64,000 nucleotides of DNA from Thermobifida alba (GTDB taxonomy: Bacteria; Actinomycetota; Actinomycetes; Streptosporangiales; Streptosporangiaceae): NCBI RefSeq assembly GCF_023208015.1, contig NZ_CP051627.1:806001-870000 (forward strand), in the 5' to 3' direction. The position numbers were made by a program, and so were the translations under genes. The notes below the pieces were generated by a model. The model was given only the letters and a program-made list of their open reading frames with translations, was not told where the DNA came from and ran no database searches. Each line of letters starts with the position of its first letter. Positions within the stretch are counted from its first letter, which is position 1. This document shows, piece by piece, positions 18,926-25,183 of the stretch.

Positions 18926-21900
18926 ATGGAACGGCAGATCGTGGCGGACCGGTTCCGGCTGTGTGGACTCCTCGGCCGGGGCAACATGGGCGAGGTTCAC
19001 CGGGCCGAGGACACCAGAGCTGACGAAGGGTCTCCTGACCGTCAGGTCGCCGTCAAACTGATCCTGCAGCGCCGTTCCGGCGCACCGGTCGCCCCCGACG
19101 AGGCCCGGGTCAAGCGGTTCGCCCGCGAGGTGGAGATCATGCGCCGCCTCGACCACCCGGGCATCCCCCGCCTGGTCGACGGGGGCGTGGACACCTCCGA
19201 CGGCGTCCGGCCCTACCTCGCCATGGAACTGCTGGACGGCCACCCGCTGCGCGACCTCGCCGAGGAGGAGCCGCGCCTGCCGGTCTCCTGGGTCGCCGCG
19301 TTCGGCGCGCAGATCGCCGACGCCCTGGACGCCGCGCACACCGCCGGCATCGTCCACCGCGACCTCAAGCCCGCCAACGTGATGCTGGTGCGCGGCGGCC
19401 GGGTCAAGGTCCTCGACTTCGGCATGGGCCGCGTCGTCGACGACCCCGACCTCAGCAGGCTCACCAGCACCGCCGCGACCGTGGGCACCGCCCGCTACAT
19501 GGCTCCCGAGCAGTTCCTCGACAGCCGGGTCACCGCCGCCGCCGACCTGTACGCGCTGGGCTGCGTCCTCTACGAACTGCTCACCGGAGGCCCGCCGTTC
19601 ACCGGGAACACCTTCCTGGAACTGGGGCAGGCCCACCAGAAGGCCGAGGCGGCCCCGGTGGGCGTGGTGCGCAAGAACGTGCCCGGATCGCTGGCCCGCC
19701 TCGTCGACCGGCTGCTGCGCAAGGACCCCGCCGAGCGACCGGCCGGGGCCGCCGAGGTCCGCGACGCCCTGCTGCCGCTGGCCGCCGGCGACGACACGGT
19801 GCCCGGCTGGGAGGAGTACAACCCGCTGCGCTGCCTGCCCGGGACCGCCTCCGCCGTCCGGCCCCCCTCCCGGGCGGACGCCCCGAGCACCGCGCCCGCC
19901 AACGTCATGGACGTCTTCGACCTGCACCAGCAGCTGATCGACGACTACCGCGCCTTCACCGAAGGCGGCACCGTCATCCGCGACGAGCGCATCGCCGCGT
20001 TCCTCGCCGAGGACCTGGACGCCAAGTCCCAGTGGCCCGACCCGTGGCTGTCGCTCAACCCGTTCTTCGCCTCCGGCGGCACCGTGCCCAACCTGGTCGC
20101 CGAAGGACTGCTGCACCCCGAGTGCGCCCGCATCTTCCGCACCAGGAAGTCCCCCCACGACACCACGGGCAGCACCGGGCGCCCTCTCGAACTCCACCGC
20201 CACCAACTGGAGGCGATCCACGCGGCCCGCAGCGGCCGGTCCTACGTGCTGACCACCGGCACCGGCTCCGGCAAGTCGCTGTCCTACATCATCCCGATCG
20301 TCGACCGGGTGCTGCGCGACCGCGAGGCCCAGGGCGCCAGGGCCGCCAAGAGGGTCCGCGCCATCATCGTCTACCCGATGAACGCCCTGGCCAACAGCCA
20401 GCTCAACGAACTGGAGAAGTACCTGGTCCACGGCTACGGCAGGGGCCGCGAACCGGTCACCTTCGCCCGCTACACCGGCCAAGAGGACGAGCGCCGCCGC
20501 AAGGAGCTGCGCGACAACCCGCCCGACATCCTGCTCACCAACTACGTGATGCTGGAGTTGATGCTCACCCGTCCCGGCGACCGCAGCTCCCTCATCTCCA
20601 TGGCGCGCGGCCTGGACTTCCTCGTCTTCGACGAACTGCACACCTACCGGGGCCGCCAGGGCGCCGACGTGGCCCTGCTCATCCGCCGCGTCCGCCAGGC
20701 CTGCGAGGCGCCGGACGTGCAGTGCGTCGGCACCTCCGCCACCATGTCCTCCGAGGGGGGCGTCGAGGACCAGAAGGAGGTCGTGGCCAAGGTCGCCGGC
20801 GAGATCTTCGGCACCGGGATCGACCCGGCCGACGTCATCACCGAGACTCTGGTCCGCGCCACCGGCGAGGCGCCGGACACCGTCCCCGTCGAGTGCCTGA
20901 CCCGCGCGGACGCGCCGCGTGCCTACGCCGACCTGGTGCGCGACCCGCTGGCCCGGTGGATCGAGAGCCGCTTCGGACTGGCCGAGGAGCCCACCGGCCG
21001 CCTGGTGCGCCAACGCCCCGGCCGCATCGAGGACGCCGCCGCCGAACTCGCCGCGGCCACCGGCGTGCCCCACGACCGGTGCGCGCACGCCATCCGCAGC
21101 ACCCTGGAGGCCGGGGCCGAGGCCCGCCACCCGGTCAGCGAGCGCCCCCTGTTCGCGTTCCGCCTGCACCAGTTCCTGTCCAAGGGCGACACCGTCTACG
21201 TCACCCTGGAACACCCCGAGCACCGCTACCTCACCCGCGACTACCAGATGGAGCAGCCCGGCTCCGGCGGCAAGGTGCTGCTGCCGCTCGCGTTCTGCCG
21301 CGAGTGCGGACAGGAGTACCTGACGGTCTGGCGCGCCGACACCCCCGACGGCACGGTCTACCGGCCCCGCCGCGACACCACCGCCGCCGCCGACGGCGGT
21401 GTCGAGGGCTACCTGTACGTCGCCCCCGACAACCCCTGGCCCGCCACGGCCGCCGACGCCGTCGAGCAGCGTCGGCTCCCCGAGTCCTGGCTGGAGCTCG
21501 ACGAGCACGGCCAGGAACGCCTCCGCAAGACCTACCGGGACCGGGTGCCGCGCCGCGTCACCGTCGACCCGTACGGCGTCGAGGACCGGGGCGAGCTGCA
21601 GGCCGCGTTCATCCCCGCGCCGTTCCTGTTCTGCCTGCACTGCGGCGTCAGCTACGAGCAGGTGCGCGGCAAGGACTTCGCGAAGCTCGCCTCCCTCGAC
21701 CAGGAAGGCCGCTCCTCGGCGACCTCCCTGGTGTCGGCGTCCATCGTCCGCTCCCTCAACGCGGTGCCGCCCGAGGCGCTGCCCGCCGAGGCCCGCAAAC
21801 TCCTCACTTTCGTCGACAACCGCCAGGACGCCTCTCTGCAGGCCGGACACTTCAACGACTTCGTGCAGGTCACCCAGTTGCGCGGGGCGCTGTACCGGGC

Positions 21901-24900: not shown

Positions 24901-25183
24901 GCCCCACGAGGCCCAGGTGTACGTGCCCGAGGCGAACGCCCGACCCGACTTCGTGTACCGGCTGCCGGGCGCACCGGTCGCGGTGTTCGTGGACGGCCCC
25001 GTGCACGCCGACGCCCGCGTCGCCGAACGCGACGCCCAGGCCGAGCAGCGCCTGTACGACGCCGGATGGGACGTGGTGCGCTTCCCGCACGACGCCGACT
25101 GGGCGGCCATCGTCGCGACCATGCCGTCCTACTTCGGCCCGGGAAGCAGCCGCACCCCCGACCGCCCGACCGGCCCCCGCTGA
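18926..25183 (+). CDS. Ser/Thr kinase-DEAD/DEAH helicase-DUF1998-nuclease-like fusion protein
   Basis: 2085 residues in one frame. Residues about 8-285 are a complete PknB-type kinase: GRGNMG loop, Lys44, HRDLKPAN (144-151), DFG (164-166), MAPEQF. A superfamily 2 helicase follows: motif I TGTGSGKS (Lys450), motif II DELH (569-572), GTSATM, and motif V/VI ELGVDIAELNAVMMRN...QRSGRAGRSGQ (about 1320-1355). Cysteine pairs lie at about 790, 903 and 1650 (CEQC...CELC). The DUF1998 signature NNCSRGCYNCLLTYGNQ starts near 1914. The last 90 residues hold PDFVYRLPGAPVAVFVDGPVH (Asp2008, Asp2023, His2027), like Vsr/DUF559 PD-(D/E)XK domains. It resembles DISARM DrmA plus DrmB, or Druantia DruE, with an added kinase. 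It heads the operon with the next two genes. Confidence 0.9.
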   Translation: MERQIVADRFRLCGLLGRGNMGEVHRAEDTRADEGSPDRQVAVKLILQRRSGAPVAPDEARVKRFAREVEIMRRLDHPGIPRLVDGGVDTSDGVRPYLAMELLDGHPLRDLAEEEPRLPVSWVAAFGAQIADALDAAHTAGIVHRDLKPANVMLVRGGRVKVLDFGMGRVVDDPDLSRLTSTAATVGTARYMAPEQFLDSRVTAAADLYALGCVLYELLTGGPPFTGNTFLELGQAHQKAEAAPVGVVRKNVPGSLARLVDRLLRKDPAERPAGAAEVRDALLPLAAGDDTVPGWEEYNPLRCLPGTASAVRPPSRADAPSTAPANVMDVFDLHQQLIDDYRAFTEGGTVIRDERIAAFLAEDLDAKSQWPDPWLSLNPFFASGGTVPNLVAEGLLHPECARIFRTRKSPHDTTGSTGRPLELHRHQLEAIHAARSGRSYVLTTGTGSGKSLSYIIPIVDRVLRDREAQGARAAKRVRAIIVYPMNALANSQLNELEKYLVHGYGRGREPVTFARYTGQEDERRRKELRDNPPDILLTNYVMLELMLTRPGDRSSLISMARGLDFLVFDELHTYRGRQGADVALLIRRVRQACEAPDVQCVGTSATMSSEGGVEDQKEVVAKVAGEIFGTGIDPADVITETLVRATGEAPDTVPVECLTRADAPRAYADLVRDPLARWIESRFGLAEEPTGRLVRQRPGRIEDAAAELAAATGVPHDRCAHAIRSTLEAGAEARHPVSERPLFAFRLHQFLSKGDTVYVTLEHPEHRYLTRDYQMEQPGSGGKVLLPLAFCRECGQEYLTVWRADTPDGTVYRPRRDTTAAADGGVEGYLYVAPDNPWPATAADAVEQRRLPESWLELDEHGQERLRKTYRDRVPRRVTVDPYGVEDRGELQAAFIPAPFLFCLHCGVSYEQVRGKDFAKLASLDQEGRSSATSLVSASIVRSLNAVPPEALPAEARKLLTFVDNRQDASLQAGHFNDFVQVTQLRGALYRALAEAGEDGLTHEDLSRRVTEALALDPADYARKADRTELSPKMLSNAAATLRDVVAFRLYLDLERGWRVTMPNLEQTGLLRVDYADLDWLAAKEDAWQDAPHWLRAAEPHVREEILRVLMDEMRRSLAIDVQCFRDDFDVLRRASEERLSDAWTLTESDRPRVGTAYPQPSRPGMDRSGLFLSGRGKFGKYLRRVHFPDMGVDDAQHAIEFLLRALAGVGLVSEVEAAPRRAGYRRSSTPAATGYRIDAACLIWRAGDGRNGVHDPLTRTYAAGQGPRVNTFFRDLYRDAAASLAGLAAREHTAQVSPEDREAREEQFSRGDLKLLYCSPTMELGVDIAELNAVMMRNVPPTPANYAQRSGRAGRSGQPALVTTYCATGNSHDQYYFRHSDRMVSGVVVPPRLDLANEDLVAAHLQAIWLAETGLRLGRAVPEVIDVSFDEDQRRPDPALPLHDTVAAAIGDEAAQRRTVAAARQVFDDILPKLAATTWWDDEWLERRVKAAPAEFDRAFDRWRSLYRAALVDRAEQHRRILDHSLSERDRNQAARRRREAETQLTLLKNESVDSKSLLSDFNPYRYLASEGFLPGYSFPRLPLAAYIPASGRRAEEGDFLQRPRFVAIREFGPGALIYHEGARYQVTRIQLPPESTGDLVTSQAKRCEQCGYHHDPSDRADRCELCGHPLGAAAHGLLHLHTVYTRRREKISSDEEERRRAGFRLVTSYRFQDHGDRLGRQDAHVADDAGRIATLHYGDSATVRITNLGRLRARENEPDGFWLDPATGRWLNEQDAKKAVGDAEELPLVEDGEEPRGRKKRVIPYVEDRRNILVLHLAEALSEAGAVSLMYALERGVEAAFQLEDDELTSELLPPEGGTRDRMLFTEAAEGGAGVLRQLLALPGNLAKAARTALEICHFGPDGADLGTEGGNNCSRGCYNCLLTYGNQRHHGLIDRHAVRDLLLRLAAAETLPTGVGVTRTEQMRVLAERSETNLEQRFLAWLKERGHRMPHEAQVYVPEANARPDFVYRLPGAPVAVFVDGPVHADARVAERDAQAEQRLYDAGWDVVRFPHDADWAAIVATMPSYFGPGSSRTPDRPTGPR

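Follow-up and report, generated by a model that had tools for sequence, protein, structure and literature searches.

Why does a helicase of a bacterial defence family carry a Ser/Thr kinase at its N-terminus, and what may that kinase do there? The question is raised by a stretch of the Thermobifida alba genome (contig NZ_CP051627.1, positions 806,001 to 870,000; this whole stretch of 64,000 nucleotides is hereafter called the window), in which one open reading frame (ORF) joins a kinase to a DUF1998 helicase. A preliminary description of the window had noticed this frame and suggested that the kinase might gate a DISARM- or Druantia-like defence. We found that the kinase is intact, that a variable linker ties it to the helicase, that the fusion is kept within one clade, and that it heads an operon of three genes. 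The features of the locus are collected in Table 1.

An intact kinase joined to a YprA-family helicase

The fusion ORF starts with ATG and, as the preliminary description had it, is free of internal stops throughout. Its guanine-cytosine (GC) contents at the three codon positions, 0.74/0.49/0.96, fit the expectation for a high-GC gene; a 2796-residue antisense ORF (16901-25291) was taken as its shadow. The kinase motifs reported earlier all lie where they had been placed: GRGNMG at residues 17-22, K44, HRD at 144-146, DFG at 164-166 and APE at 193-195. The superfamily 2 (SF2) helicase and DUF1998 region was likewise recovered, by the Pfam models DEAD, Helicase_C and MZB. K450 sits within the helicase Walker A motif TGTGSGKS, and CxxC pairs are conserved at 791/794, 903/906, 1649/1652 and 1665/1668. 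The helicase part matches DruE in PADLOC and TIGR03817, and the YprA structure 6znp is found among its PDB matches. It is thus a DUF1998 (YprA-family) helicase, and the part preceding it is a complete PknB-like Ser/Thr kinase. What the preliminary description overlooked is a putative nuclease-like domain at the C-terminus and the two co-directional genes that follow.

Table 1 Features of the fusion locus (positions within the window)
Feature	Position	Strand	Remarks
HsdM-like methyltransferase-fold protein with N-terminal helix-turn-helix (HTH)-like segment	17023-18654	-	543 residues; divergent from and upstream of the fusion; accessory
Kinase-YprA helicase fusion	18926-25183	+	2085 residues; ATG start; single frame
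PknB-like Ser/Thr kinase domain	18965-19744	+	residues 14-273; Pfam PF00069 Pkinase, E 1e-41; PknB alignment
Variable linker	19781-19906	+	residues 286-327; 39-59 residues long, mean identity 0.305 (78 rows)
DEAD/RecA1	20198-20752	+	residues 425-609; Pfam DEAD, E 3e-26; Walker A K450; DELH 569-572
Helicase_C/RecA2	22784-22999	+	residues 1287-1358; Pfam, E 1e-12; QRSGRAGR 1349-1356
MZB (DUF1998 zinc domain)	24416-24697	+	residues 1831-1924; Pfam, E 2e-9
Putative Vsr/DUF559-like PD-(D/E)xK nuclease domain	24842-25105	+	residues about 1973-2060; motif and invariant columns
RapA/BrxHII-like SF2 helicase	25303-28263	+	986 residues; frame open from 23878
PglX/DrmMI-like N6-adenine DNA methyltransferase	28263-32408	+	1381 residues; GNPPW 801-805 conserved; 1-base overlap with the RapA-like gene

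Near-full-length homologues, about 60-92% identical, occur in many actinobacterial genera, so that the fusion is more than a chance event. Six patterns, all in the helicase part, brought up 146 relatives; the best 80 are hereafter the named loci, and because of this selection they favour close relatives and are uninformative on overall frequency. In 77 of these 80, a single frame spans both the kinase and the helicase. In two others (L072 and L084) the contig ends near the start of the helicase, and the last one (L086, Streptomyces sp. AC1-42W) has no kinase although it lies inside a long contig, which also bears a fused copy (L063). The survey of homologues that the preliminary description had recommended yielded one clade in which, a single exception apart, all assessable copies retain the fusion. 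When a second, overlapping set was added (11 of its 12 loci), the shared open frame was found in 88 of 92 loci, and we rejected the possibility that a stop or frameshift between kinase and helicase had been misread here; the 'stops' counted in homologous loci were taken to come from alignments that overrun the C-terminal stop.

For the residue comparison, 82 distinct full-length sequences (rows) were aligned, after five short or kinase-less ORFs, five duplicates and L001 had been dropped. K44, H144-R145-D146, D164-F165-G166 and A193-P194-E195 are identical in all 82 rows, and so are G445-S451, D569, E570 and H572 of the helicase and C1916, C1920 and C1923 of the MZB domain. In the activation loop, T180 is present in 78 of 78 rows and S181 in 75, and position 182 is T or S in 73; T180 and T182 of the fused kinase align with the T-x-T of PknB. 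Every feature of a PknB-type Ser/Thr kinase that was looked for, namely the catalytic K, HRD, DFG, APE and an activation-loop Thr, is therefore present. The ratio of nonsynonymous to synonymous change (dN/dS) in the kinase is 0.05-0.23 in 14 of 15 pairs, and the kinase distances follow those of the helicase closely (Mantel r 0.93, a value reached in 0 of 2000 permutations), the mean identity being 0.66 for the kinase domain versus 0.74 for the helicase. The catalytic invariance, the low dN/dS and the correlated distances together indicate long-standing selection on the kinase as a part of this protein. The fused kinase is 41-47% identical to ten free-standing kinases from other genomes, several of which, by our own reading, seem to carry TPR repeats. 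A free-standing Ser/Thr kinase with TPR repeats is also encoded within the window (3002-4630, minus strand).

The C-terminal domain shows the pattern LE...PDF(V/I)Y...VFVDGPxH...RD...GWxVxR, and its AlphaFold model has a pLDDT of 85. Foldseek gave no significant match for this model (best E 0.02), and a profile search ranked Vsr (1cw0), at E 0.2, below an unrelated transketolase (E 0.12). Many of the weak fold matches are PD-(D/E)xK enzymes and others are not; none is significant. In view of this, the nuclease reading rests on the motif together with the published description of ARMADA. The core pattern is kept in 33 of 81 rows of the kinase clade (the 78 fused ones, L086 and the two at contig edges), the window and most of the non-Streptomyces members being among them; almost all Streptomyces lack it, so that DNA cleavage by this domain is probably not a function common to the clade. 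The kinase, in contrast, is intact wherever it is seen whole. Since only 6 of 18 kinase-less rows have the pattern, lacking it is not specific to kinase-bearing rows.

The operon and its place among known systems

The start of the second gene was set at 25303 because its product then aligns end to end with the PADLOC model PDLC02853. A codon-GC gene caller picked an antisense frame over this interval; homology was allowed to decide, and the gene was accepted. Genes 2 and 3 are co-directional with the fusion in the loci whose contigs reach them, gene 2 having a broken frame in T. cellulosilytica (L013), where the RapA-like helicase is 96-100% identical to that of the window over the first 800 residues and the frame, as assembled, then breaks. 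As compared with the same species, identity in the methyltransferase is 96-100% over residues 1-600 and falls to 27-79% per 100 residues thereafter; in the fusion protein it is 82-98%. This divergence probably reflects a swap of the target-recognition half, which would fit a sequence-specific marking of self DNA. An AlphaFold model of methyltransferase residues 1-470, made in search of a hidden nuclease, had low confidence (pLDDT 65).

According to the available text of Bell et al. 2025 (PMC12458937), ARMADA Type I consists, in this order, of a YprA-like helicase with a C-terminal Vsr-type nuclease, a BrxHII-like helicase and a PglX-like protein, and further features are a BrxA-like insert, zinc modules and a coiled-coil HTH extension; Type II has a fourth gene and blocks phages without killing the cell. 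Judged by its sequences, the layout of the operon at 18926-32408 is that of ARMADA Type I: the order and the strand of the three genes agree, DUF1998 lies in the same chain as the helicase, and both are common in Actinomycetota. The putative C-terminal domain may correspond to the Vsr-type nuclease of ARMADA I, and the conserved CxxC pairs of the window helicase may belong to zinc modules of the published kind. The differences are the N-terminal Ser/Thr kinase and linker that the window fusion adds, the HsdM-like extra gene in some loci of the kinase clade, and the absence of the nuclease pattern in many. The main text of PMC12458937 nowhere uses the word 'kinase'. Titles and the openings of abstracts yielded no published account of a kinase-bearing ARMADA I clade, most subscription papers and supplementary tables lying beyond the reach of this search. 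The ARMADA I backbone itself is already published.

The earlier label 'DISARM/Druantia-like' stands in part: the setting is related to DISARM, as DrmD and DrmMI are among the models that the two downstream genes match, but the system is not DISARM and probably not Druantia either. With class 1 DISARM it shares a related helicase family and the DrmD-like and DrmMI-like partners, whereas DISARM has separate DrmA and DrmB plus DrmC, as far as the available texts tell (PMC9142583, PMC12458937), and its DrmA bears other N-terminal parts. DISARM was rejected because helicase and MZB lie in one chain here; in addition, the DrmD-like protein scores 289 bits against an NCBIfam cut-off of 610, and DrmC is not among the matches listed for the operon proteins. 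As for Druantia, DruE3 is the best PADLOC match of the window helicase (365 bits), but the partners are others (P0002-P0004 best match other families among the matches listed). No further Druantia component was found among the matches listed for the four scanned proteins, the rest of the window lying outside the search for DruH and DruA-D. Membership in Druantia is thus not supported.

Three further systems were compared. Mokosh also has an N-terminal Ser/Thr kinase on a helicase, and the kinase part of the fusion matches positions 4-274 of MkoA (121 bits, PADLOC). The helicase of MkoA is, however, of the superfamily 1 RNA-helicase type and has a PLD partner, whereas the window system combines an SF2 YprA helicase with a methyltransferase. 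A Ser/Thr kinase on a defence helicase accordingly has a precedent in MkoA. BREX-2/Pgl has a kinase (PglW) alongside a PglX-like methyltransferase, but as a separate protein; it was rejected, in a comparison of PglW and PglX, with 57 bits for the former against a cut-off of 990 and 55 for the latter against 400. The PADLOC model PDLC02853, labelled DpdE, matches P0002 (the RapA-like protein) over its whole length with 1625 bits. Dpd was nevertheless rejected, since the NCBIfam DpdE score is 152 bits against a cut-off of 500; no deazaguanine gene is found among the operon proteins, to which this search was confined. The DpdE label is probably misleading for this gene, and PDLC02853 probably draws on ARMADA I proteins, which would cause misannotation.

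Kinase-less relatives and genomic surroundings

Kinase-less operons resembling ARMADA I were found in the same class, in the wider phylum and in other phyla. In a class sample, 20 of 246 genomes have the helicase, in 21 loci, of which 8 are with and 13 without the kinase (1.5 kb of flank searched). In a phylum sample it occurs in 17 of 246 genomes, two of which are fused members already known (G000 and G081); none of the 15 newly listed loci gave a kinase match, although L161, which starts at a contig end inside the helicase, cannot tell. The preliminary description had set two findings in combination against the fusion, namely kinase-less homologues across many genomes and a break of the frame between kinase and helicase in the window: the former were found, the latter was not.

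We examined 18 kinase-less loci, chosen because no fused kinase had been seen in them and fetched with 7-20 kb of context. No match to the window kinase domain was obtained at E 1e-4 anywhere in these stretches, and the other two operon genes follow in the same order in 17 of them, the contig of the 18th ending first. At the position of M328, all 18 rows have M or V, either of which could serve as a start. Upstream of it the open frame extends by only 3-95 residues (220 in L125), which is too short to leave room for a kinase, so that the kinase-less helicase frames open near the point where the linker ends in the window. A similar picture is provided by plasmids, of which 69 records match: among the 25 listed, only a Streptomyces one starts inside the kinase, and the matches from Nocardioides, Rhodococcus, Deinococcus, Roseomonas, Chlorohelix and Thermus start at residues 301-328. 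A FastTree tree of 99 rows, rooted on the 18 kinase-less ones and without two fragments (L065 and L080), separates the 78 kinase-bearing from the 18 kinase-less rows with a support of 100, while L086 nests in the kinase clade. This topology requires two changes, for which a single gain followed by a single loss is the simplest account; the tree alone gives no direction. One row (L023), on a contig labelled Candidatus Melainabacteria, groups among Pseudonocardiaceae and probably stems from a mis-binned actinobacterial contig.

The divergent HsdM-like gene has matches in some members of the kinase clade, the kinase-less L086 among them, and no match in the 18 kinase-less loci outside that clade. 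Its motif IV varies (DPPT, HPPF, EPPA, TPPA, NPPY and others in the 21 readable of 23 rows), so that some copies may be inactive, and on this ground the protein is perhaps a methyltransferase turned regulator. The nuclease pattern is present in 17 of 21 rows with this gene vs 10 of 48 without it, gene-bearing rows having been admitted even with short flanks; however, seven phylogenetically independent pairs gave no usable contrast for this link.

The surroundings of the fusion look like defence islands. Of the 80 named loci, 67 have 7.5 kb or more of sequence before the frame start that was used, and 69 have 8.5 kb or more after the frame end; a DrmA-like gene is found in 15 and a sigma-factor/MzaA-like gene in 17 of the 67, and an AAA gene that we label McrB-like in 13 of the 69. 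A recurrent island, lying upstream of the fusion and on the opposite strand where mapped, consists of a sigma-factor/coiled-coil (MzaA-like) gene and a DrmA-like helicase (L021, L025, L031, L032, L034, L041, L043, L046, L050, L052, L057, L060, L077, L083 and L085). A set of 120 flanking genes was chosen on codon GC from 39 of the named loci, those above 900 residues being left out; among the first 25 of its 101 PADLOC families, relatives of Gabija, Wadjet and restriction-modification systems have 1-7 members each. On one plasmid, a kinase-less ARMADA I follows DISARM drmA/drmB and precedes an AAA ATPase and McrC. Within the window, where PADLOC covered 11 proteins, the nearest scanned genes are DUF6879 and HTH genes. 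Farther out lie a T5orf172 (GIY-YIG-like) protein that matches PADLOC PDC-S57 (36582-37562, minus strand) and an AbiEi-like protein (46990-47955, plus strand). An NB-ARC/STAND-like ATPase with TPR repeats (39334-41229), preceded by a gene of 143 codons without a Pfam match, is a possible further conflict system.

What the kinase may do

The reading that we prefer, with a probability of roughly 45%, is that the operon is an ARMADA Type I anti-phage system whose tethered, active PknB-like kinase sets the on/off threshold of its own complex. By analogy with the ARMADA and DISARM papers, which also suggest the defence function as such, the methyltransferase would mark host DNA, and the two helicases would engage and remodel incoming phage DNA that is unmarked or single-stranded. 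The flexible linker would hold the kinase before the helicase core, where it may phosphorylate the complex itself, both in its own activation loop and at sites of the helicase partners. This self-phosphorylation would set the threshold of the system (the activity, the action in cis and the direction are all presumed). The invariant catalytic residues, the PknB-like activation loop, the low dN/dS, the correlated distances, the operon order and the lack of room for a kinase in the kinase-less rows speak for this reading. A precedent for gating next to this helicase core is also provided by DISARM, in which DrmAB is autoinhibited by a trigger loop that DNA releases in a methylation-sensitive manner (PMC9142583, available text). 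On the sequence evidence, a phosphorylation-gated defence is plausible.

Several results weigh against the threshold reading. Kinase-less operons outnumber the fused ones, in 12 vs 8 genomes of the class sample and 15 vs 2 of the phylum sample. This majority, together with the loss in L086, indicates that the kinase is not needed for the core function: it is an added layer, not the core. Ser/Thr residues specific to the kinase clade, considered as candidate phosphosites, show no clear enrichment in the three proteins (20 of 421, or 4.8%, vs 2.3-4.4% for other residue classes), and no target site emerged from this comparison. PP2C and FHA are not among the 25 commonest of the 81 Pfam families of the 120 flanking genes. 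Finally, dN/dS is higher between the window and T. cellulosilytica (0.47 for the kinase and 0.49 for the helicase), a pair of low synonymous divergence.

The main rival, because the nuclease pattern is missing in 48 of 81 kinase-clade rows, is that the kinase is a second effector, which the DNA engagement of the helicases switches on and whose substrates would be proteins of the host or the phage, whether or not DNA is cleaved as well. That the catalytic residues of the kinase stay intact in 82 of 82 rows fits this view, as does the proposal, in the available text of PMC10853773, that kinase domains fused N-terminally to DndF are co-effectors. We consider it somewhat unlikely, however, since the pattern is also absent in 12 of 18 rows that have no kinase, and since ARMADA Type II acted without cell killing (PMC12458937, available text). 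It is improbable that the kinase instead serves as a sensor or guard, which phage countermeasures or host stress signals modify, bind or inhibit and which thereby releases the system. Phage protein kinases are reported as broad counter-defences (PMC12904381, available text), and the lower conservation of the kinase (0.66 vs 0.74) is what a contact surface might show; but no added sensor domain is recognised in the fusion, and the TPR or membrane parts that its free-standing relatives seem to carry are missing. A phosphorylation-regulated DNA-repair helicase without a role in defence would agree with the repair function of MrfA/YprA itself (PMC12458937, available text). This housekeeping role is the least probable one, being at odds with the operon shared with a PglX-like methyltransferase, with a patchy distribution (the fusion in 8 of 246 class genomes, its own genome included; no helicase match in the same-genus genome G003), with the Gabija-, Wadjet-, restriction- and DrmA-like genes in some flanks, and with the kinase-less kin on plasmids, one of them downstream of DISARM drmA/drmB.

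A more far-reaching possibility, which we hold to be doubtful, is that the fusion is a DNA-sensing kinase: the helicases would detect foreign DNA, and the kinase rather than a nuclease would respond by phosphorylating proteins of the cell or the phage. If so, it would be a bacterial analogue of the DNA- and RNA-activated kinases of animal immunity, and its purest form would be found in those Streptomyces members that lack the nuclease pattern. Taken more broadly, the intact kinase on a defence helicase in many actinobacteria suggests that phosphorylation controls or executes part of the defence. Related operons with and without the fused kinase, sometimes within one genome, constitute a clean natural experiment on this point; if the kinase does control or execute defence, phosphorylation would be a built-in switch or output in the DISARM/ARMADA/Druantia superfamily.

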